Notes under the pieces: generated by a model
What the model saw: the letters and a program-made list of their open reading frames with translations, nothing else
Told to the model about the DNA's origin: nothing
The model's database searches: none
Translations under genes and position numbers: made by a program
Shown here: in pieces, positions 5,375 through 24,679 of the stretch
Numbering within the stretch: position 1 is the stretch's first letter
Layout: every line of letters starts with the position of its first letter
Origin: Gilvimarinus polysaccharolyticus
GTDB lineage: Bacteria > Pseudomonadota > Gammaproteobacteria > Pseudomonadales > Cellvibrionaceae
Assembly: GCF_001187555.1 (NCBI RefSeq)
Contig: NZ_LFIJ01000001.1
Coordinates: forward strand, 1,142,169-1,206,168
Length of the DNA stretch: 64,000 bases
Reading direction: 5' to 3'

Positions 5375-5860
5375 CTAAATATCTTCGAGATCAGACCACT
5401 CTTCATTGGTCAGCAATTTATTCAGCTCAATCAAGATCAGTAGCTCGTCATTTTTATGACACACCCCCTGAATAAACTTAGCGCTCTCTTCATTGCCAAC
5501 GTTGGGGGCCGTTTCGATCTCTGACTCGCGCAGATAAACCACCTCAGCTACGCTATCGACCAACATACCAATAACGTGGTTATCGGTCTCGATGATAACG
5601 ATTCGGGTGTTGTCGGTAACCTCGCCTGCGGGCAGTGCAAAACGATGGCGAGTATCTATTACCGTAACCACGTTACCGCGCAAATTAATAATACCTAGTA
5701 CATAGCTAGGCGCGCCCGGCACAGGGGCGATCTCGGAGTAACGCAGCACTTCTTGAACCTGCATAACGTTAATACCGTAGGTTTCACCATCCAGCCGAAA
5801 GGTTACCCACTGTAAAACCGCATCCTCGGCGTTTTGATGTTTATTGGCATTGTTTGCCAT
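5375..5860 (-). CDS. cheW: Chemotaxis coupling protein CheW
   Basis: The cytoplasmic adaptor linking chemoreceptors to the kinase CheA. 161 aa, a single CheW domain spanning nearly all of it; VTFRLDGETYGINVMQVQEV, VPGAPSYVLGIINLRG and VIDTR are hallmark segments. The start is the ATG at 5858-5860, because AGGAG lies 6 nt before it; an upstream GTG at 5875 lacks such a site. It is separated from parP by 223 nt that carry a candidate sigma-28 promoter, so it may be partly expressed as a late gene as well as from the che operon. Confidence 0.97.
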   Translation of the reverse strand: MANNANKHQNAEDAVLQWVTFRLDGETYGINVMQVQEVLRYSEIAPVPGAPSYVLGIINLRGNVVTVIDTRHRFALPAGEVTDNTRIVIIETDNHVIGMLVDSVAEVVYLRESEIETAPNVGNEESAKFIQGVCHKNDELLILIELNKLLTNEEWSDLEDI

Positions 5861-5962
5861 GGTCGCTCCTCGCACAAAATATTAGGCACTTGCCCAATAT
5901 GCCACAATAATAAGCGGCACAGGTTAATTGGTTGCACATTACTTTATCTGCTGTAGTAAAGC

Positions 5963-5989
5963 GTATCGGCCATACTGCATATTTCTTCA
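5963..5989 (-). promoter_or_regulatory. Candidate sigma-28 (FliA) promoter of cheW
   Basis: On the minus strand TGAAGAAA, 11 nt, GCCGATAC. The -10 matches the GCCGATAA consensus at 7 of 8 positions; the -35 is weak (4 of 8). The transcript would start near 5955, about 95 nt before cheW. Confidence 0.45.
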
Positions 5990-6083
5990 GTGTAGGTTAA
6001 AAGATTCGCCACTGGGCCATCGCAAGACGCTGTTTCGCCTAAGTTTACTACAGCCTACCCAAACCACCTCGATTATAACGGCT

Positions 6084-6959
6084 CTATTTACGACTATTAC
6101 GGTCGGCATCGGTTAACAACTTGCCCATCATCGGAATATCAAGCAACGCACACATGTGCTCTTTAACCGTTCCGGCCAACCAAGCCCGCTTAGAGCGTGA
6201 GCTACGCCATTTCACATCGTCGGGGGCGAGCCGCATGGGCTGCTCGACCTTGTCGACCGCCAGCCCCCACGGCACGCCATTAATGGAGACCACATATTGA
6301 GCTGTATCTACAAAGCTTGGATCATAACGTTCAGGCATAACAAATTTTGCGGTGTTAATGGTACGCACCTTACCCGAAGGGGTTGGCTGTAACCCCATAA
6401 ACCAGTCGGCCTGACCAAACAATGGGGTCAGCTCATCGGTTAACGGTTGAATTTGTCCTAGCGTTATCAGCGGCACCGCTAAGGTTAAGCCGCTGACGGT
6501 AAAAAGGAGCACCTCAAAAGGCTCCTGCGCCCACACAGGCCGGCCATTTTCATGCCATTGCAACGCTTCGTCGAGGGCGGACTGATGCTCCGTTAGTGCT
6601 GTATCGCTAGCTGTATCTGCGATTAGATCGTTTGTCTCTGGCACATCGGACTTAACGCTAGGCGCGACAGCCGTTGCTGTTTTAACCGACGGCGCCACGA
6701 CTTTAGGCGCGGTCTCGGGCTCGGCATGCTGCGCTACAGTTGCACGAGCACTGTACAGCAGCTGTTGTAATTGGTCGCGACGCTCGTTGTCATCTAGCAG
6801 TTGAGTTTTAGATTCAACAATTGGCGGCGTGTCCGGCGCTGCCTGCAGGGGTTTCTCTGCAGCCGCTTGCAATGGTTTCTGAGCGCGTCCGGTATGCGCG
6901 GGTACCGGCGGCTCGCTAAGCAGCTCATTGAGATAATCTTGTAAAATCCCACTGCTCAC
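6084..6959 (-). CDS. parP: ParP-type CheW-like protein for polar array localization
   Basis: A 291-aa protein with a Pro/Ala/Thr-rich N-terminal half (about 1-140, containing a doubled KPLQAA motif) and a C-terminal CheW-like domain (about 145-285: FEVLLFTVSGLTLAVPL...). Gene order motD-parC-parP-cheW matches Vibrio and Pseudomonas, where ParP ties ParC to receptors and CheA through this CheW-like (AIF) domain. The start is the GTG at 6957-6959: it overlaps the parC stop as GTGA and has AGGAG 7 nt upstream. A longer reading up to 7013 would begin well inside parC without a good ribosome site. Confidence 0.88.
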   Translation of the reverse strand: MSSGILQDYLNELLSEPPVPAHTGRAQKPLQAAAEKPLQAAPDTPPIVESKTQLLDDNERRDQLQQLLYSARATVAQHAEPETAPKVVAPSVKTATAVAPSVKSDVPETNDLIADTASDTALTEHQSALDEALQWHENGRPVWAQEPFEVLLFTVSGLTLAVPLITLGQIQPLTDELTPLFGQADWFMGLQPTPSGKVRTINTAKFVMPERYDPSFVDTAQYVVSINGVPWGLAVDKVEQPMRLAPDDVKWRSSRSKRAWLAGTVKEHMCALLDIPMMGKLLTDADRNSRK

Positions 6960-7777
6960 GGTGCAACTCCTGCCGCTTGTTTGGCGGCCGATGCTTGCCG
7001 CAATCTCAACCATTTATACAGTGAGCGATACGCTTCGACCCCACGACTTTGCGGCTCATAGATATTGGGGGGAACTCCCGCTTTGCTGGCATCGCGAAAC
7101 TTAGTATCGATCGGGATCTTACCCGGCCAGGTGTGCTCGGGGTAATCATGCCGAATCGTGCGCATCGTGCTAACCGAGGCTTGAGTGCGCCGGTCAAACA
7201 GTGCTGGGACAATCGTATAGTTAAGTGTTTGACGTCTAGATTTACCCATCATATTTAAAGTGTTAACCATTCGCTCTAAGCCTTTCAGAGCCAAAAACTC
7301 GGTTTGCACCGGAATCAACAGCTCATCGCAGGCGGCCAGAGCGTTAACCATGAGTACGCCCAATAACGGTGGGGTATCAATAATCACTACATCGTAATCA
7401 TCGATCAATAATTCTAGCGCACGCTTCACCACCAAGCCTAAGCCATCGGGGCCTAGCGCCCGCCGCTCTAATGTGGCTAACGCTGTGGATGCTGGCAACA
7501 CGTCAATGTTGGGGTAATCGGTTGAGAAGATCAGTGATTTTACAAAACGGTGAGCATTAACTGGCGCATCGCTTAAACACTCGCGCTCCGCAAACAAGGT
7601 AAAAGCACTGCGAGTTAAAGTGTCGGGGTCTTGACGAAAATAACTGGTTAAAGAGCCGTGCGGGTCGAGATCGAGCAGCAGGACACGCACTTGCTCGGCA
7701 GCCAAGCCGCCGAGTGCCACGCTGGTGGTTGTTTTACCTACCCCACCTTTTTGGTTAGCGATTGTCCAGACTTTCAC
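6956..7777 (-). CDS. parC: ParC, ParA-family ATPase for polar chemotaxis arrays
   Basis: A deviant Walker A ATPase of the ParA/MinD group, 273 aa. The P-loop is KGGVGKTTT near residue 10, Walker A' is LLDLDPHGSL and Walker B is VVIIDTPP. The neighbours (che genes before, parP and cheW after) identify it as the polar chemotaxis ParC (PA1462-type) rather than a chromosome or plasmid partition protein: no parB or parS-like site is present. The start is the GTG at 7775-7777, preceded by GAGGGG; another in-frame GTG lies 12 nt upstream. It probably positions chemosensory arrays at the flagellated pole. Confidence 0.9.
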   Translation of the reverse strand: MKVWTIANQKGGVGKTTTSVALGGLAAEQVRVLLLDLDPHGSLTSYFRQDPDTLTRSAFTLFAERECLSDAPVNAHRFVKSLIFSTDYPNIDVLPASTALATLERRALGPDGLGLVVKRALELLIDDYDVVIIDTPPLLGVLMVNALAACDELLIPVQTEFLALKGLERMVNTLNMMGKSRRQTLNYTIVPALFDRRTQASVSTMRTIRHDYPEHTWPGKIPIDTKFRDASKAGVPPNIYEPQSRGVEAYRSLYKWLRLRQASAAKQAAGVAP

Positions 7778-7898
7778 AACACCCCTCACAAATGCATTTA
7801 AAACGTCAATCTAACGTCATCTTAACGTTGATCGACACCGAGTATTTAACCTAGAGCAAAGATCGTGCCGCGTAGTAATAACGACGCCGAGAACTAGT

Positions 7899-8765
7899 TT
7901 ATTGGCCGTTATTAGTACGCGGTAGGTCAGGGTCGCTACTGTAGAGCAACGCACCGCCGTCAAGTTCTACCGGCTTAATGTCGGCACTGGGCAAGGTCGG
8001 CTTGGGGTTGTCAGCGCTGTTAATGTTAGTGGTTATCGCTTGCGGTCGAACCCGGTGATCACGCGCAATCATAATGGCGACACGGCGGTTTTTCGTGCGT
8101 CCATCAGCGGTGTCATTACTGGCGACAGGTTGATACTTACCGTACCCTACAGCCGCTAAACGTGCTGGCCCTACTCCTGCGTCAATAAGCCATTTGACGA
8201 TAGCCGCTGCCCGCGCCGCCGACAACTCCCAATTGCTTGGATAGCGACTAGTTTGAATTGGCACATTGTCAGTAAACCCTTCAATTTGCACAGGGTTATC
8301 CACGCTGGAGATAATCTCGGCAACACGAGTGAAGATTTCCCGCGCGGCATTACTTACATCGGCACTGCCGGATGAAAATAAAATACTATCGCGCAACTCC
8401 ACCTGCAACCACATCTCATTGCTTGAAACCTGCATTAACTGGTCGTCGATCAGCTCAGCGAATTCTGATTTAAATGCCGCCTCAAGCTGATCAAGGTTAC
8501 CTTTATGATCGCCTAATGGCGTGTTCGGAATTGGAGGTACTGCGGTGTTGTGCTGCCCTGTACCGAGTTTGGAGTGTGCCGTCCGCGGCGACGAATCAAA
8601 CGCATCGGTTAAAGTGGATGACAATACCCGATATTTGCTTTCATTGACTTGTGAAATTGAGTACATCACCACAAAAAAAGCAAACAGCAACGTAATAAAG
8701 TCGGCATAACTCACCAGCCAGCGCTCGTGGTTGACGGTTAAGTCACGCGGGCGACGCCTAGGCAT
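7899..8765 (-). CDS. motD: Flagellar stator protein MotD (MotB-like)
   Basis: The peptidoglycan-anchored half of a stator unit. 288 aa. One membrane helix follows a basic start, with the proton-binding aspartate D22 in SYADFITLLFAFF. The OmpA-like peptidoglycan-binding domain lies at about 135-245 and includes IEGFTDNVPI, NWELSAARAAAIVKWL and GYGKYQPVASN. The C-terminal 45 residues are low in conservation. It follows motC by 11 nt. In Pseudomonas MotCD is the stator set encoded in the che cluster and supports swarming; a MotAB set would be elsewhere. Confidence 0.95.
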   Translation of the reverse strand: MPRRRPRDLTVNHERWLVSYADFITLLFAFFVVMYSISQVNESKYRVLSSTLTDAFDSSPRTAHSKLGTGQHNTAVPPIPNTPLGDHKGNLDQLEAAFKSEFAELIDDQLMQVSSNEMWLQVELRDSILFSSGSADVSNAAREIFTRVAEIISSVDNPVQIEGFTDNVPIQTSRYPSNWELSAARAAAIVKWLIDAGVGPARLAAVGYGKYQPVASNDTADGRTKNRRVAIMIARDHRVRPQAITTNINSADNPKPTLPSADIKPVELDGGALLYSSDPDLPRTNNGQ

Positions 8766-8776
8766 AACAACGCCTA

Positions 8777-9517
8777 TTAATCGAGATAGCCACTCAATCG
8801 AACCTCTATAGCGCGGGGGTTTTCACCGTTGGCAATACCTAGCACACCCTCGATAAACATTTCACCATAACGGATCTCGCGATCAACACACATTCGCAAT
8901 TTATTGGCGATTGGTAAAAACAGTAAATTTGCCAGTGCCACACCATAAATTGTTGCAACAAAAGCAACGGCAATGCCTGGGCCTAGTTGTTCGGGATCGG
9001 CAAGATTGCGCATGACGTGAATTAACCCCATCACCGCTCCCAAAATACCTATTGTGGGAGCGTAGCCGCCCATACTTTCGTAAAATTTTACGGCATCCAA
9101 ATGATTTTGTTCCGAGAGTATTAAGTCACCCTCCATAACGCGACGAATGGTGTCAGGCTCATTACCGTCAACCAGAAGAGTCAACGCTTTTTGCGCTACA
9201 GGATCGGTTTCGTTATCGGCCAGCTTTTCTAACCCCAGCAACCCTTCTTTACGCGCGGTTATCGACCAAGCGGTGATTTTATCCATGCCTTGCTGATAAT
9301 CCCACTGCGGTGGGCGAAACACCCAGATGATCATCCGTAAGGCACGCATCAAACACGTTTTGGGCGTTTGCAGCATAGCGGCACCAGCGGTTCCGCCAAT
9401 AACAATAAATGCAGCGGGGAAATTACTCAGCGAGGCCAAGGTGCCGCCCTCGATAAAATTACCACCGATAATAGCGGCAAAACCAAGCAATACACCTACA
9501 ATACTCAGTATATCCAT
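8777..9517 (-). CDS. motC: Flagellar stator protein MotC (MotA-like)
   Basis: The ion-channel stator subunit, 246 aa, with four membrane segments (about 2-20, 32-50, 150-170 and 180-200) and a long cytoplasmic loop between the second and third. FIEGGTLASL, PTIGILGAVMGLIHVM and GPGIAVAFVATIYGVALANL are characteristic of the MotA/MotC/PomA family. The ATG shares one base with the cheB stop (TGATG), so it is coupled to cheB. It forms a stator with MotD. Confidence 0.95.
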   Translation of the reverse strand: MDILSIVGVLLGFAAIIGGNFIEGGTLASLSNFPAAFIVIGGTAGAAMLQTPKTCLMRALRMIIWVFRPPQWDYQQGMDKITAWSITARKEGLLGLEKLADNETDPVAQKALTLLVDGNEPDTIRRVMEGDLILSEQNHLDAVKFYESMGGYAPTIGILGAVMGLIHVMRNLADPEQLGPGIAVAFVATIYGVALANLLFLPIANKLRMCVDREIRYGEMFIEGVLGIANGENPRAIEVRLSGYLD

Positions 9518-10593
9518 CAGCGCACCTCAGCAGCCAATGCCGGCCCGATCTCTTTTAAACTTAACACTCGATCGGTTAGATTTTCGCGAGCAACTGCCAT
9601 AGGCATACCGTAAATAACACAGCTGTCTTTATCTTGCCCCCAGATTTGTGCGCCGCGTTGTTTTAGCAGCCCGGCCCCTTTGCAACCGTCTGAGCCCATG
9701 CCGGTTAATACCACACCCAACACTCTGTCAGCGTAAGTATTGGCGGCAGATCCAAAAGTGATGTCTAGGCTTGGCTTGTAATTAACCCGCGCGTCATCGG
9801 CTAAAATTTTAACCACACCGCGACGATCAATCATCATTTGTTTGCCACCAGGAGCTAACAGTGCCAAGCCAGGCTTTATATGATCGCCATCGACAGCTTC
9901 TCGGACTTCAATAGCGCACTGTTTGTTTAAACGTTCGGAAAATGCACGAGTAAAATTTTCTGGCATGTGCTGCACCAATAAAATCGGTACATTAAAACTT
10001 GCCGGCAAACACGACAGCACCTCCATCAAAGCCACTGGGCCACCAGTAGATGCGCCAATCACCACTAAGTTAGGCTTTGGGTAGCTAACACGAGCTCGGG
10101 GATTTGAGTCTCTGGATGCCACTTTTTGAGTAAAATCAATCTCAGGGTATTGTATGGAGTCGGGAGTTTTTGGCGCACTATTAATTGCTTTAGTGCTGCC
10201 GCCAGACAATGCCAACAAACGTTCATGCAACTTTTGTTTTAGCACTATCGAGTTGCGCGACACCTCGGCAAAATCTTTTGGCAAAAAATCGACTGCACCA
10301 GCCGCCAAAGCATCAAGAGTGATGCGCGCACCTTCATAGGTTAATGATGAAAACATCAAAATTGGCACTGACCGCTCTGCCATAATTGTGCGCACAGCAG
10401 TAACACCATCCATCACCGGCATTTCAAAATCCATGGTAATGACATCAGGCTTTAACGATCGCGCCAACTCAACGCCCTGTTGGCCGTTACTTGCAATGCC
10501 AACCACTTCAAGCTGGGGATTTTGATTGATAATATCTTTAAGACGAGATTGAAAAAACTGTGAATCGTCTACGATTAATACCCGTACGGGCAT
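9517..10593 (-). CDS. cheB: Chemotaxis protein-glutamate methylesterase CheB
   Basis: The receptor demethylase and deamidase, 358 aa. It has an N-terminal receiver with the phospho-acceptor D55 (ITMDFEMPVMDG) and a C-terminal CheB methylesterase with catalytic S182 (GASTGGP), H209 (VQHMPENFT) and D302 (GMGSDGCKG). A linker of about 40 residues (130-170) joins them. It acts with CheR (57908-58768), which lies far away in the cheV-cheR pair. It follows cheA by 64 nt. Confidence 0.97.
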   Translation of the reverse strand: MPVRVLIVDDSQFFQSRLKDIINQNPQLEVVGIASNGQQGVELARSLKPDVITMDFEMPVMDGVTAVRTIMAERSVPILMFSSLTYEGARITLDALAAGAVDFLPKDFAEVSRNSIVLKQKLHERLLALSGGSTKAINSAPKTPDSIQYPEIDFTQKVASRDSNPRARVSYPKPNLVVIGASTGGPVALMEVLSCLPASFNVPILLVQHMPENFTRAFSERLNKQCAIEVREAVDGDHIKPGLALLAPGGKQMMIDRRGVVKILADDARVNYKPSLDITFGSAANTYADRVLGVVLTGMGSDGCKGAGLLKQRGAQIWGQDKDSCVIYGMPMAVARENLTDRVLSLKEIGPALAAEVR

Positions 10594-10657
10594 GCGAGGT
10601 ACTCCATCCGTTTTAAATTATCAATCAACCCGCAACCGCCAATTACACCATTGGTTG

Positions 10658-12877
10658 TTACGAATTAGAGTAGCGTGCAAGCAAGCTTGGAACATCCAAT
10701 ATTAACGCAATAGTACCATCGCCGGTAATCGTCGCACCGGCCATGCCGGGTGTTCCCTGTAGCATTTTACCCAAAGGTTTAATAACCACCTCTTCTTGAC
10801 CCACAAGCTGATCGACGACAAAACCTATGCGTCGGGTGCCAACAGTAACGATAACAACATGCCCCTCACCCATCGAGCGCGCATCAACTTTAGGCCCGCG
10901 GACAAGCCAATTTTTTAAGTAAAAAATGGGAATGGCCTGATCGCGCACCGCTACACACTCTTGCCCATCCACGACGTGAGATTTGCGTAAGTTCATATGA
11001 AATATCTCATTCACACTTACCAACGGCAACGCAAAAGTTTGGTTTTCGAGCATAACCATAAGCGTCGGCATAATCGCTAGCGTTAGCGGCACTTTGATAT
11101 TAATACGCGTGCCCTTACCCAGCGTCGATTGAATTTCAATAGAGCCGTTTAGCTGATTAATTTTTGTTTTGACAACGTCCATGCCTACGCCACGGCCGGA
11201 GACATCGGATATTTCAACTTTAGTTGAAAAGCCCGGTGCAAAAATCAAATCAAAAGCTTCAGCATCAGATAAACGCTGCACGGCATCTTGGTCATACAAA
11301 CCTTTGTTAACCGCAATCTGACGTAATTTATCGGGGTCCATACCTGCGCCGTCATCGGTGATCGACAGCAGGATATGATCACCTTCTTGCTCAGCAGCCA
11401 ATATAACGCTGCCCTGACGAGGCTTGCCGTTTGCTTCACGCACATCAGGTAATTCGATACCATGATCAACCGAGTTGCGTACCAAATGGACCAGCGGATC
11501 GGCTAGTGCTTCAACTAAGTTTTTATCTAAATCGGTATCTTCACCCATTAAATCTAGGCTAATTTCTTTTTTCAAACTACGAGCCAAATCGCGCACAACT
11601 CGAGGGAATCGCCCAAAAACCTTTTTAATAGGCTGCATCCGAGTTTTCATAACCGATGACTGTAAATCGGCGGTAACTACATCGAGGTTGGCGACGGCTT
11701 TACTTAACGGTTCATTCTGTGCGCTATCGCCAAGCCGAACTAAGCGATTGCGCACCAACACCAGCTCACCCACCATGTTCATAATTTCATCCAACCGCTG
11801 GGTATCTACCCGCACAGTGGTTTCGGCTTGCGCAGGGCTTTTTGAGTTGGAGTCTTGTGCTTGCATTTTTTCTGCCGGCTGCCGAGCTTGTGGTTTGGCT
11901 TGCGCGACAGGCTGGGCAGCCGGTGCGGCTTTTTGTTCCGGCTCTTTTTTGCTAACCGCTGGTGTCGAGGGTTTCGACGCAGGTTTGTCAGTGGCAGCAG
12001 TCACTGCAGGCGCATTACCTTTACCATGCAGCTGATCGAGTAACGACTCAAATTCATCGTCTGTTATTTCATCGCTTGTGCTGGCCGATGCCGTAGAAGA
12101 TGTATTTGCTTGGCTTACGCCAACCGCTGGAGCTTTGCCTTTGCCGTGCAGCTCATCAAGCAACGCTTCGAACTCATCATCGCTGATATTGTCGTTCGTG
12201 CTGGCTGGCACTGGCGCAGCAACACCAGGCCCTTGGCCTTTGCCGTGCAACTGATCGAGTAGAGCATCAAATTCATCCTCGCTCATATCGGCACTCGATT
12301 CGGAGTCGTTTTCTGCACTGCCCTCACTGGTAGTGCTAGATTCCCCGTTCAGGGCATCGAGTAATGTTTCGAACTCATCGTCGGTAATATCATTGCCGGC
12401 ACGAACAGTATTATTAGCGCTAGCATTAGCTGTGGTGTTGCTGGCATCGGCAATCTGTGTCGCAGCTGCGCTAGCTTCGTGCAGATCTTCACAGGCAACC
12501 AGACGCTCTAAGGTGGCAATCAACTCTGGAGCTGGAGCGGTAAGCGACTCACCTTTAGAGACGTTATCGAATTGTCGATTAATAACATCAAGAGCTTCCA
12601 GCACAACGTCCATCAGCTCTGAGGTTACGCTGCGTTTACCATTTCTTAGAATATCAAATAAGTTTTCTGTGACATGGCAGCATTCAACCATTTCTGTGAG
12701 CTGTAAAAAACCTGCACCTCCTTTTACCGTATGAAAGCCACGGAAAATAGCGTTGAGGAGCTCGGAGTCGTCGGGCTGACGCTCAAGCTGAACCAACTGC
12801 TCAGAGAGGTTTTCAAGTATTTCTCCCGCCTCGACTAAAAAGTCTTGGAGAATCTCTTCGTCTTCACCAAACCCCAT
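10658..12877 (-). CDS. cheA: Chemotaxis histidine kinase CheA with repeated linker motif
   Basis: The central signalling kinase, 739 aa. P1 Hpt domain about 1-105 with phospho-histidine H49 (FHTVKGGAGF); a linker with four copies of a D/E-D-E-F-x-x-L-L-D-x-L motif (164-176, 198-214, 231-247, 271-287), the last three ending HGKG; a Pro/Ala/Lys/Gln-rich stretch 295-350; P3 dimerization about 352-415 (RLDEIMNMVGELVLVRNRL); P4 ATPase about 455-600 (HLVRNSVDHG, DDGAGMD, GRGVGMDVV); P5 CheW-like about 600-735. No ordinary P2 CheY-binding domain is evident, so the repeats may stand in for it or form the docking site for ParP. It starts 11 nt after cheZ. Confidence 0.97.
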   Translation of the reverse strand: MGFGEDEEILQDFLVEAGEILENLSEQLVQLERQPDDSELLNAIFRGFHTVKGGAGFLQLTEMVECCHVTENLFDILRNGKRSVTSELMDVVLEALDVINRQFDNVSKGESLTAPAPELIATLERLVACEDLHEASAAATQIADASNTTANASANNTVRAGNDITDDEFETLLDALNGESSTTSEGSAENDSESSADMSEDEFDALLDQLHGKGQGPGVAAPVPASTNDNISDDEFEALLDELHGKGKAPAVGVSQANTSSTASASTSDEITDDEFESLLDQLHGKGNAPAVTAATDKPASKPSTPAVSKKEPEQKAAPAAQPVAQAKPQARQPAEKMQAQDSNSKSPAQAETTVRVDTQRLDEIMNMVGELVLVRNRLVRLGDSAQNEPLSKAVANLDVVTADLQSSVMKTRMQPIKKVFGRFPRVVRDLARSLKKEISLDLMGEDTDLDKNLVEALADPLVHLVRNSVDHGIELPDVREANGKPRQGSVILAAEQEGDHILLSITDDGAGMDPDKLRQIAVNKGLYDQDAVQRLSDAEAFDLIFAPGFSTKVEISDVSGRGVGMDVVKTKINQLNGSIEIQSTLGKGTRINIKVPLTLAIMPTLMVMLENQTFALPLVSVNEIFHMNLRKSHVVDGQECVAVRDQAIPIFYLKNWLVRGPKVDARSMGEGHVVIVTVGTRRIGFVVDQLVGQEEVVIKPLGKMLQGTPGMAGATITGDGTIALILDVPSLLARYSNS
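12017..12388 (-). repeat. Four-copy degenerate repeat inside cheA (linker motif)
   Basis: Protein motif units begin at residues 164, 198, 231 and 271 (spacing 34, 33 and 40). Consensus: (I/M)(T/S)(D/E)DEF(E/D)xLLDxL, followed by HGKGxxP in copies 2-4. The DNA of copies 2-4 is also clearly similar, implying duplication of a unit of about 100-120 bp. Confidence 0.85.
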
Positions 12878-12888
12878 TTATGAACCCC

Positions 12889-13680
12889 TCAAAAGCCGAG
12901 ACTGGAAAGCAAGTCATCCACATCATCTTGACTGGAAACCACATCATTTTTACTGGTATCTATTTGCGGGCCTTCGCCATTAGGGCGATCGGTTACGCGA
13001 GCCTTACCTTCGTTATCGGCGTCTACTTGCAGACCTGTAATTTCTTCTACTTGTCCAGCAATTCGCACTAGGCTCACCAAGTCTTGTTCGACTTCGGCAA
13101 TCAGTGCCATAACTCTTTTAAGAACTTGCCCGGTTAAATCCTGAAAACCTTGCTCTAGAATAATTTCTTGTAAATTGCGTCCCAGCAGTTCGGTGCCTGA
13201 GTCCATTTGCCCAAGAAAATCATCCATCCTCGAATACAGTGAGCGAAACTCTTCCGCATTCATATCGCCGCCTTTTAAGCGAACCCATTCTGTGCGCAAG
13301 GACTTGGCTTCCTGGCCAAGATTCATAGCAATAGGAGCAGCTTCTTCCACCATGTCCATGGTTTTGTCGGCAGCTTTTTGAGTCAGTTCGATAACATATT
13401 TTAAACGATCAGAAGCATCTCGGATTTCGGAGGTCTCAGCTGAAGGCTCACCATTAATATCACCATCGACATTAAAATTGACTATGGCACTGTGCAGTCC
13501 GCGAGTTAAACGGCCAACCGACTGATATAAATGTTTATTGCGAGATTCTGTAATGGATTCGATTAAACGCGAGGCCTCATCAAAGTCATTGCCTTGCAGT
13601 TTTTCGACTAACAGGCTGGCACTTTCTTTGATCTCTTTGACAAAAAACTCATTGTCCTTTTCTTGTGTATCAGAAGTCAT
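12889..13680 (-). CDS. cheZ: CheY-P phosphatase CheZ
   Basis: Speeds dephosphorylation of CheY-P. 263 aa, mainly helical. The catalytic segment GFQDLTGQVLKRVM carries D181 and Q185, the equivalents of E. coli D143 and Q147. The last residues DDVDDLLSSLGF form the usual C-terminal CheY-docking helix. It sits between cheY (38 nt gap) and cheA (11 nt gap) in the che operon. Confidence 0.96.
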   Translation of the reverse strand: MTSDTQEKDNEFFVKEIKESASLLVEKLQGNDFDEASRLIESITESRNKHLYQSVGRLTRGLHSAIVNFNVDGDINGEPSAETSEIRDASDRLKYVIELTQKAADKTMDMVEEAAPIAMNLGQEAKSLRTEWVRLKGGDMNAEEFRSLYSRMDDFLGQMDSGTELLGRNLQEIILEQGFQDLTGQVLKRVMALIAEVEQDLVSLVRIAGQVEEITGLQVDADNEGKARVTDRPNGEGPQIDTSKNDVVSSQDDVDDLLSSLGF

Positions 13681-13718
13681 CGCTGTGCCTTATTGTTGAC
13701 AACGTAGCGGGTCGGATA

Positions 13719-14102
13719 TTAACCAACTCGCTCGAAGATTTTTTCAATCTTTTCTTTTAGAGCCGCAGCTGTAAAAGGTTTTACCACATAGCCATTCACA
13801 CCCGCTTGGGCGGCCTCAACGATCTGATCGCGTTTGGCCTCGGCGGTCACCATAAGTACAGGTAACGAGCCGAGCTTTTCATCGGCGCGCACTGCACGCA
13901 GCAGATCGATACCGCTCATGCCTGGCATGTTCCAATCGGTGATTAAAAAATCAAATCCACCACTTTTCAGCATAGGCAGCCCGGTAAGGCCATCATCTGC
14001 TTCTTGAGTATTGGTGAAGCCTAAGTCGCGCAATAAGTTTTTAATGATCCGTCGCATTGTCGAAAAGTCATCGACAATGAGAATCTTCATGTTTTTATCC
14101 AA
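13719..14102 (-). CDS. cheY: Chemotaxis response regulator CheY
   Basis: A single-domain receiver that binds FliM when phosphorylated and switches rotation. 127 aa with the acidic pair D11-D12, phospho-acceptor D56 ([11 protein letters not shown]), T86 (MVTAEAK) and K108 (VVKPF). The best ribosome site, GGAGG, is 5-7 nt before a TTG codon at 14100-14102, which I take as the start; the ATG four codons later (14090) begins the conserved MKILIVDD but would be about 17 nt from GGAGG. The 141-nt gap to fliA shows no clear promoter or terminator. Confidence 0.96.
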
Positions 14103-23241: not shown

Positions 23242-23682
23242 CTAACGCAACTTTTTAATACGTTCAGAGGGGCTAATGACATCGGTCATACGGATGCCAA
23301 ACTTTTCATTTACCACCACCACTTCACCGTGGGCAATCAAAGTGCCATTGACTTTGACGTCCAACGGCTCCCCGGCCAAACGGTCGAGTTCGATAACCGA
23401 GCCTTGGTTTAATTGCAGCAAATTACGAATTGTAATAGCGGTGCTGCCTACCTCCATAGAGATATTTACCGGAATATCCAAGATTAAATCTAGTTCAGGT
23501 CCAAGCTCTCGGGGCGAACCCTCACTCTCTAATTCATCAAGGGCTAATGCACCACTGTCAGAGGCGGTAGAATCGACAATATCATCCACGGTTTCTTGCT
23601 CTTCCATGGCAGCAGCCCACTCATCGGCCATCGCCTGTTGGTCTAGCTCTTCACTGCCTTCTGTTTCGATATCATCTGCCAT
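23242..23682 (-). CDS. fliN: Flagellar motor switch protein FliN
   Basis: C-ring component of 146 aa. An acidic N-terminal half (about 1-60) precedes the SpoA domain (about 65-140) with LDIPVNISMEVGSTAITIRN and GTLIAHGEVVVVNEKFGIR. The start at 23680-23682 follows AAGGAGG by 5 nt and overlaps the end of fliM by 11 nt. It forms the lower C-ring with FliM. Confidence 0.97.
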   Translation of the reverse strand: MADDIETEGSEELDQQAMADEWAAAMEEQETVDDIVDSTASDSGALALDELESEGSPRELGPELDLILDIPVNISMEVGSTAITIRNLLQLNQGSVIELDRLAGEPLDVKVNGTLIAHGEVVVVNEKFGIRMTDVISPSERIKKLR

Positions 23683-24679
23683 TGGGGCCTCCTTCGGCGA
23701 CACTAACATTGTGTGCACTGCTATGATCAATAAATTCTTTAACTTTTAGTGCCAGATTGCCTTTATGCTGACCCAGCTCGGTTCGAAACACCGGCACCCC
23801 GTTAGCGGTGAGCACTTGATGAGGCGGAAACTCAACCGGAATAATGTCTCCTGCTTCTAGATCAACAATATCGCGCAAGGTGATCTCGCGGTTAACCACT
23901 TCACACTCAAGCTCAACCTTTGCCGACAACACATCTTCGCGCAGCGCCTTGACCCAGCGGTCATCTTTTTCATCTGAGTCACTCTGCAAACCCGCGTCAA
24001 GCACCTCGCGGATTGGCTCAATCATTGAGTACGGAATGGTTAAGTGCATTTCACCACCACCGCCATCCAGCTCGATATGAAAGGTGCTCACCACTACCAC
24101 TTCACTGGGGCTCACGATATTTGCAAGCGATGGGTTAACCTCAGAATTAATGTATTCAAATTCAATCGGCATAACGGCTTTCCAAGCTTCGCTTAAATCG
24201 ATAAACACTTGGTTCAGCACCATCTGCACAACACGTAACTCAGTTGGCGTAAACTCGCGCCCTTCAATTTTTGCATGGCGACCGTCACCACCAAAAAAAT
24301 TATCTACCAACTTAAAGACTAAACGAGCATCTAGTATGATCAGTGCTGTGCCTCGTAACGGCCGAAACTTGACCATATTGAGGCTGGTGGGCACATACAA
24401 GGTGTGAACGTATTCCCCAAACTTTTGGATATTGATTCCGCCTACGGATACATCAGCCGTGCGCCGTAGCATGTTAAACATGCTAATGCGGGTGTAACGA
24501 GCAAAGCGCTCATTAATCATTTCGAGTGTTGGCATCCGACCGCGAACGATCCGATCTTGGCTGGTTAGATCGTACGATCGGACCTCACCGGGCTCTAAGT
24601 CATTATCGGTATCTATTTCGCCATCATCGACGCCATGCAACAACGCATCGATTTCATCTTGTGTCAGTAAGTCTTGCAC
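23672..24679 (-). CDS. fliM: Flagellar motor switch protein FliM
   Basis: The C-ring protein that binds CheY-P, 335 aa. The CheY-binding N-terminal peptide is DLLTQDEIDALLHGV (residues 3-17), then the middle domain (about 45-235, with GGINIQKFGEYV) and the C-terminal SpoA domain (about 250-320). It starts 11 nt after the fliL stop. The N-terminal peptide resembles the repeated motif in CheA of the same cluster. Confidence 0.97.
   Translation of the reverse strand: MQDLLTQDEIDALLHGVDDGEIDTDNDLEPGEVRSYDLTSQDRIVRGRMPTLEMINERFARYTRISMFNMLRRTADVSVGGINIQKFGEYVHTLYVPTSLNMVKFRPLRGTALIILDARLVFKLVDNFFGGDGRHAKIEGREFTPTELRVVQMVLNQVFIDLSEAWKAVMPIEFEYINSEVNPSLANIVSPSEVVVVSTFHIELDGGGGEMHLTIPYSMIEPIREVLDAGLQSDSDEKDDRWVKALREDVLSAKVELECEVVNREITLRDIVDLEAGDIIPVEFPPHQVLTANGVPVFRTELGQHKGNLALKVKEFIDHSSAHNVSVAEGGPNGR

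Follow-up and report, generated by a model that had tools for sequence, protein, structure and literature searches.

How a chemotaxis kinase without a P2 domain might hold CheY is the question raised by the cheA gene of Gilvimarinus polysaccharolyticus (10658–12877 on the minus strand, as are all features given here; positions are those of the window, the whole 64,000-nucleotide stretch of contig NZ_LFIJ01000001.1 that was analysed). This open reading frame encodes an F6-type CheA of 739 residues, in which Pfam recognises the P1 (Hpt) domain (residues 8–99, 12581–12856; PF01627, E 1.1e-17), the P3 dimerisation domain (residues 353–412, 11642–11821; PF02895), and the P4 kinase and P5 CheW-like domains (residues 460–735, 10673–11500; PF02518 and PF01584), with no match to P2. 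Its neighbourhood follows the order cheY–cheZ–cheA–cheB–motor genes–parC–parP–cheW (5375–14102), that of an F6-class cluster; the class was assigned by this gene order, under the name that we take to apply from the F6 literature and from PMC7184735. More than half of CheA proteins are without P2 and have an extended unstructured region instead, according to a survey (PMC10782961) that contains neither the word FliM nor the word motif.

The initial annotation had placed four repeats where P2 would sit, and they are indeed found there. Between P1 and P3, at residues 163–287 of 739 and ahead of P3 at 353, lie four near-identical 15-residue units, each followed by G: DITDDEFETLLDALN (12347–12391, starting at residue 163), DMSEDEFDALLDQLH (12245–12289, residue 197), NISDDEFEALLDELH (12146–12190, residue 230) and EITDDEFESLLDQLH (12026–12070, residue 270). 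Their consensus is [DEN]-[IM]-[ST]-[DE]-D-E-F-[DE]-x-L-L-D-x-L-[HN]-G, and the HG tail described as common to all of them is present in repeats 2–4 but replaced by NG in repeat 1. Shuffled linkers (n=3,840) scored with a first motif matrix reached 13.3 at best, with a 99th percentile of −3.3, and the motif threshold was set at 12; with a second matrix the window copies score 45–54 and the next position in the window −4.9, both matrices including the window CheA itself. At the DNA level, a search of the full 3.74 Mb genome with a pattern for [DE]EF[DE]x[LF][LF][DE] gave four matches, every one within cheA, and the reversed-pattern control gave none; over 14 genomes the core pattern has 46 matches, 43 of them in cheA by coordinates and three elsewhere, against a single match for the reversed control. 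The repeats are far beyond chance expectation.

Neither are they a local oddity. When CheA loci taken from the order, class and phylum were scored with the motif matrix built from order relatives, the motif appeared in 80 of 82 F6-type CheAs (defined by a P3–P5 score >420), with four copies in 32, three in 32, two in 14 and one in 2. Both exceptions are incomplete sequences, L041 stopping at a contig edge and L045 being interrupted by a run of N. Absence from close relatives would have spoken against the annotated motif; instead, all 11 further F6-type CheAs from the order carry two to four copies. A similarity search with the window CheA, one of whose search peptides was itself a repeat, gave three or four copies in 80 of 80 relatives, these being the best 80 of at least 590 matches and including some of the genomes already in the set of 82. 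Among 32 CheAs from other classes, not one rises above the motif threshold. The repeats are thus real, old and general. Two smaller observations belong here: an N-terminal CheA fragment at L045 also has one repeat copy, and two degraded copies are visible by eye in L071, a CheA of another class.

The linker that carries the repeats appears to be otherwise unfolded, and the repeats themselves are strongly maintained. An AlphaFold2 model built from a 67-row alignment has pLDDT <50 over most of residues 136–357 (11807–12472) and contains no folded domain between P1 and P3; four helices, in blocks of about 50–79 pLDDT, are predicted exactly at the repeats (residues 166–177, 200–211, 233–243 and 273–283). 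In the last copy, E275, F276 and L280 never vary among the 67 aligned motif CheAs, just as catalytic residues do not. Across eight genomes of the genus (the window and seven others) ungapped identity is 86% for the repeats, 90% for P1 and 38% for the spacers, with pN/pS values, rough because synonymous sites are saturated, of 0.12, 0.08 and 0.58, respectively. Orthologous copies share 87% amino acid and 74% DNA identity (six genus genomes, those whose four copies were all detected by a strict pattern), and copies within one CheA share 69% and 68% (eight genomes); recent tandem duplication noise was considered as an origin of the repeats and rejected, orthologous copies being more alike than copies within one protein. 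The earlier suggestion of selection for multivalency gains support, as far as upkeep of several copies is concerned, from this conservation together with the copy counts.

A comparison of linkers with the motif (79; L044, which has no P1, was omitted) and without it (32) bears directly on the relation to P2. Pfam CheY-binding domains match none of the 79 motif linkers and five of the 32 others at E 0.01, and a refined P2 model of our own exceeds 15 bits in none of the former (best 8.2) and in 20 of the latter, of which 19 are also its training rows. A cruder model without filters, tested by leaving out one sequence at a time, found 19 of the 32 non-motif linkers; this model also reached E <0.01 in 16 of the 79 motif linkers, the best being L026 with 20.6 bits, against 21.7 bits for L092, the lowest-scoring true P2 under it. 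A profile of the non-motif linkers matches the P2 structures of E. coli CheA 1fwp, 1a0o and 1ffs (E about 4e-6 to 6e-6) as well as whole CheA 6s1k (2e-18), whereas the profile of the motif linkers found no P2 in the same search and gave one chance match at E 0.93. The possibility that the repeats are a diverged P2 was ruled out by the profile searches, with no motif linker above 8.2 bits under the realigned model, and by the AlphaFold2 model. In comparison with the CheA P2/CheY-binding domain (PF07194, PF09078), the repeats occupy the same P1–P3 position and would have the same job of holding CheY near P1, yet P2 is a folded domain and the window CheA has an unfolded chain with short predicted helices and no P2 sequence match. 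Fusion with a receiver, as in CheAY, is an alternative means by which a CheA without P2 can have one close at hand. A fused C-terminal receiver occurs in six of the 32 non-motif CheAs (L002, L094, L095, L100, L106, L107), confirmed by Pfam in all three that were scanned; these six have neither repeats nor a significant P2 match, and none of the loci scanned showed a natural fusion joining a receiver to a CheA with repeats. Motif, P2 and fused receiver, as judged by these profile matches, exclude one another. Not every CheA has such a device: L071, L072, L073, L089, L090 and L108 are without motif, P2 and receiver, and only L071 has degraded copies. The other five of the 32 are devoid of all three, which counts against the proposed dock, since such a device may be dispensable for a CheA.

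The other two proteins with peptides of the proposed kind are encoded close by, with termini as the initial annotation gave them. FliM (23672–24679) starts VQDLLTQDEIDALLHGV, and its N-terminal CheY-binding-type peptide, LTQDEIDALLHG, lies at 24632–24667; CheZ (12889–13680) ends in a C-terminal peptide, QDDVDDLLSSLGF (12892–12930), of the same kind as the repeats. A FliM-only matrix was built from eight distinct 12-mers of the FliM N-termini of 28 of 29 loci, congeners contributing the window's own 12-mer to the training set. Run on the window (35,340 positions), it places FliM first, repeat 2 second, the CheZ tail third and repeats 3, 1 and 4 at ranks 4–6, the sixth (repeat 4) scoring 8.4 and the seventh, in another open reading frame, 8.3. 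This ranking depends on settings, which counts against a CheY dock: when plain pseudocounts are used, repeat 2 stands at rank 2, repeat 3 at rank 4 and the CheZ tail within ranks 2–4, and repeats 1 and 4 fall outside the top 14. A matrix from CheZ tails only (35,064 positions) ranks CheZ itself first and the CheA repeats 2 (repeat 2), 14, 15 and 20, a less clear outcome than that of the FliM-only matrix. In 50 motif-bearing loci of the class and phylum, the top match to the FliM matrix was in CheA in 28, in CheZ in 20 and in another open reading frame in two, with a CheA repeat among the top three in all but one (L051). Unrelated open reading frames elsewhere score up to 20.8, so the strength of the likeness lies in its repeated, conserved co-occurrence.

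As read from sequence, the I-[ST]-x-x-E-F of the repeats would form a helix cap with a hydrophobic staple, like L-S-x-x-E-I in FliM. With the FliM N-terminal peptide the repeats share an L/I-[ST]-x-[DE]-E-[IF]-[DE]-A-L-L core, a predicted capped amphipathic helix and HG after the core; unlike it they lie inside a kinase linker, in one to four copies and not at a protein end, and have F for I, more acidic residues and D-x-L inserted ahead of HG. The D-[DE]-[VF]-[DE]-x-L-L-x-x-L spacing is common to them and the CheZ C-terminal peptide, although the latter is a single copy at the extreme C-terminus and ends LGF, unlike the CheA array. In short, the repeats show the core consensus of FliM- and CheZ-type peptides within what is predicted to be a short amphipathic helix. 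The proposal that CheA concentrates CheY with FliM-like peptides is supported by the FliM-only matrix and by the segregation of the motif from P2, as far as sequence comparison can speak to it.

CheY itself (13719–14102; NCBIfam CheY equivalog above cut-off) supports that proposal more weakly, through conservation of the candidate docking face. The 78 F6 CheYs compared were those of 77 loci and the window's own, duplicated by one locus; E. coli numbering is used, and the face residues are what we take to be those of alpha4-beta5-alpha5. I95, A99, V103, Y106, F111, L116 and K119 are invariant in all 78, and positions 90 and 115 vary. Conservation of the FliM-binding face is 0.92, only slightly higher than the 0.88 of the whole protein, and FliM binding alone would conserve this face, a point against reading it as a mark of the CheA dock. 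One genome with neither FliM nor FlhA (G088) was considered as a flagella-less test and set aside, its cheB being split in two and the locus looking decayed. Beside motif CheAs, CheY has R92 in 66, Q94 in 75, V103 in 77 and K117 in 68 of 77 cases, whereas K, N, A and E, as in E. coli, stand at these positions in the CheZ-linked CheYs found at three loci of the P2 type; that of L071, beside the degraded copies, has K, Q, V and A. The same residue changes were described by Ortega et al. for CheY upon its move from F6 to F7 CheA, three of them facing P2 and K117E lying in the FliM-binding helix (PMC7184735). Since the F6 CheA is without P2, an older partner of the changed face is suggested, namely the acidic CheA repeat. 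These residue differences follow phylogeny and hence are not independent proof.

Published work on other species is in keeping with CheY being held by such kinases. A recent P. putida study recovered CheY and CheZ in pull-downs with CheA, though it still labels the linker, on the basis of Pfam, as a CheY-binding domain (PMC11978298); in P. aeruginosa CheY-EYFP is found mainly at one pole and serves its authors as a marker of the chemotaxis complex (PMC12410967). Both species are probably P2-less relatives, in which case their data would agree with a held CheY. The 80 relatives kept as the best of at least 590 matches include many Pseudomonas other than these two.

The repeats thus probably form an array of FliM/CheZ-like peptides that docks CheY in place of P2, and ParP may be a second client. 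Each copy would be a capped amphipathic helix (I/L, an S/T cap, an acidic residue, E, F/I, then LL), strung on a disordered tether between the phosphate-carrying P1 and P3. CheY would dock by alpha4-beta5-alpha5, the face also used for FliM and CheZ, so that up to four CheYs per CheA monomer could be held near P1, with faster phosphotransfer and retention of CheY at the receptor array as the expected outcome. What we infer from the comparisons above is the identity of the ligand as CheY, its docking face and the consequence for phosphotransfer. The peptides of FliM and CheZ favour CheY in its phosphorylated form, P2 in its unphosphorylated form, so a FliM-like dock could trap the product, and the repeats would need a tuned affinity.

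Also weighing against a CheY dock is that the linker is the place of the ParP-binding LID as well, and ParP and ParC were named by the initial annotation as alternative partners. The LID of Vibrio CheA is placed between P2 and P3, binds the AIF domain of ParP and is said to occur only with ParC/ParP (PMC5706961, PMC7534058), W305 of V. cholerae ParP being required for CheA binding (PMC5706961). By this placement LID and repeats share a CheA region and the same F6-type cluster with ParC/ParP, and a Vibrionaceae-like CheA (L086) has three repeats in a linker that is otherwise mostly Pro/Ala-rich spacer, with no P2 match. The window encodes both proteins, parP at 6084–7013 (230 bits with a ParP profile of which it is itself a row) and parC at 6956–7789 (an open reading frame named from its position beside parP and the ParP/ParC literature). 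Of 50 motif-bearing stretches from the class and phylum, 34 contain a ParP match, and one of at least 60 bits occurs in 77 of the 80 relatives kept as the best of at least 590 matches. The repeats could on these grounds be simply the LID, tying CheA to ParP and the polar anchor ParC with CheY uninvolved. Of the 26 genomes to which the 34-row ParP profile was applied, 21 carry the motif and were picked mainly for having no clear ParP near cheA, with some positive controls: nine of the 21 gave strong matches (143–237 bits, some being profile rows), three divergent ones (53–75), and nine only CheW-level matches (≤33 bits) or none. Seven of the last nine are clear (G058, G065, G067, G077, G081, G109, G152), ParC being followed directly by CheW in G152 and G109; G253 and G257 are ambiguous, with a CheW-like protein after ParC that scores as CheW and has no WLAGT segment. 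A recognisable motif is kept in all nine, as a single copy in G077 and G109 and with V-L for L-L in G065, and FliM is present in all eight that were searched for it (all but G081). Unlike the LID as reported, the motif therefore also occurs in genomes without detectable ParP, so that ParP is unlikely to be its only partner, and LID function alone explains neither the likeness to FliM and CheZ nor the exclusion of P2; we regard a purely ParP-binding role as unlikely. As the main function ParP/ParC docking would not suffice, and as an extra one it may stand, since the published LID is placed in the same linker and ParP may use the same peptides. This leads to a dual use overlapping with the CheY dock, in which the repeats hold CheY, the last copy and its G-x-G tail also bind ParP, and several copies let both share the linker. 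An HG-x-G tail after the last repeat is found in 62 of 71 CheAs counted as having ParP (that is, not among the nine ParP-less) and in four of the nine, and the three invariant residues of the last copy fit as well. The sample is small and phylogenetically uneven, and a separate conserved ParP-only segment was looked for by eye in 21 of the 80 tails, with nothing clear beyond HG-x-G and Pro/Ala-rich spacer. Such a double role is conceivable, if rather on the unlikely side.

Two further readings leave out both CheY and ParP. Because their conservation within the genus comes close to that of P1, the repeats might bind P1, P4 or P5 of CheA, or CheW, and so regulate kinase activity; AlphaFold2 leaves them, as judged by pLDDT, as moderate-confidence helices in a low-confidence chain, and the exclusion of P2 and the likeness to FliM and CheZ would go unexplained, which makes this the least probable reading of all. 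Little more probable is a likeness by chance or descent only, with the repeats as capped acidic helices of the SHOCT kind and no ligand in common with FliM or CheZ. As many as 72 of the 79 motif linkers match SHOCT (PF09851) at E 0.01 or better, and the window linker alone scores 27.3 against a cut-off of 27. Against this, the whole CheA reaches only 21 bits, only 14 of 28 SHOCT positions match, the site is in mid-protein and not C-terminal, and FliM itself is the one position that the FliM-only matrix scores above all four repeats and the CheZ tail.

Carried further, the docking of CheY by FliM/CheZ-like repeats would add a third way for a kinase to serve CheY, next to a folded P2 domain and a fused receiver: a disordered, multivalent array of FliM-mimicking helices that would make the polar receptor array a store of CheY close to the polar motor. 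FliM, CheZ and CheA would then compete through near-identical peptides for one CheY face, and ParP would share the linker. This wider picture is put forward tentatively, as one rather less likely than not. In the literature searched, no paper was found that calls the repeats CheY-binding or names the motif; Ringgaard 2014 or the 2018 review may show the sequence as LID. How kinases without P2 hold CheY is a question to which the motif suggests an answer that can be tested. Should the repeats dock CheY, the gap left by P2 would be filled for the F6 systems of Pseudomonas, Shewanella, Marinomonas, Alteromonas and Vibrio-like bacteria, a common docking code would connect FliM, CheZ and CheA, and the CheY changes that followed the move from F6 to F7 kinases would have a suggested partner. 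As for the structural side of the proposed ligand, the CheY of PDB entry 3to5, which we take to be V. cholerae CheY3, differs from the CheY of the Vibrionaceae-like locus L086 at three of 125 residues, and V. cholerae CheY3 binds FliM (PMC3774744).

Two docking devices meet in some of the relatives' che loci, where a single cluster (L087 in genome G257, L088 in G253 and L071 in G080) encodes an F6-like CheA bearing the FliM/CheZ-like linker repeats alongside a second CheA bearing the folded P2 domain. Two CheY-like genes lie in the stretch at each of these loci, and the repeats of the F6-like CheA are degraded in L071. Such paired kinases offer a natural comparison of the repeats with P2 as docking devices. 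The Pfam SHOCT profile is matched over half its length by the repeats of the window CheA (12026–12391, minus strand), and 72 of the 79 P1–P3 linkers from motif-bearing F6-type CheAs match it at an E-value of 0.01 or better; the repeats may be mislabelled by automatic annotation.

The C-terminus of F6 CheW is an acidic, LL[TS]xxEW-like tail, seen in L085, L086 and the window CheW (5375–5875). Weak scores of 10.2–10.9 against the matrix built from FliM N-termini were obtained for this tail in two loci, and its sequence is possibly that of a further FliM-like peptide, or the likeness may be due to chance.

In L060 (G152) and L063 (G109) cheW directly follows parC with no parP between them, and a ParP profile search of both genomes returned no ParP-level match; judged by sequence, ParC is present there without ParP. 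A P. aeruginosa paper (PMC12410967) describes ParC/ParP-related genes as absent from that species, whereas among the loci L114–L193 of 80 named relatives (the best 80 of at least 590 matches to the window CheA), many of them other Pseudomonas, 77 carry a ParP match of at least 60 bits near cheA.

The single-contig genome G088 (L037, L267, L268) retains cheY-cheZ-cheA-parC-parP-cheW, with three repeats in its CheA, but gave no match to FliM or FlhA. With cheB broken up into a pair of ORFs, the locus is apparently decaying following loss of the flagellum.
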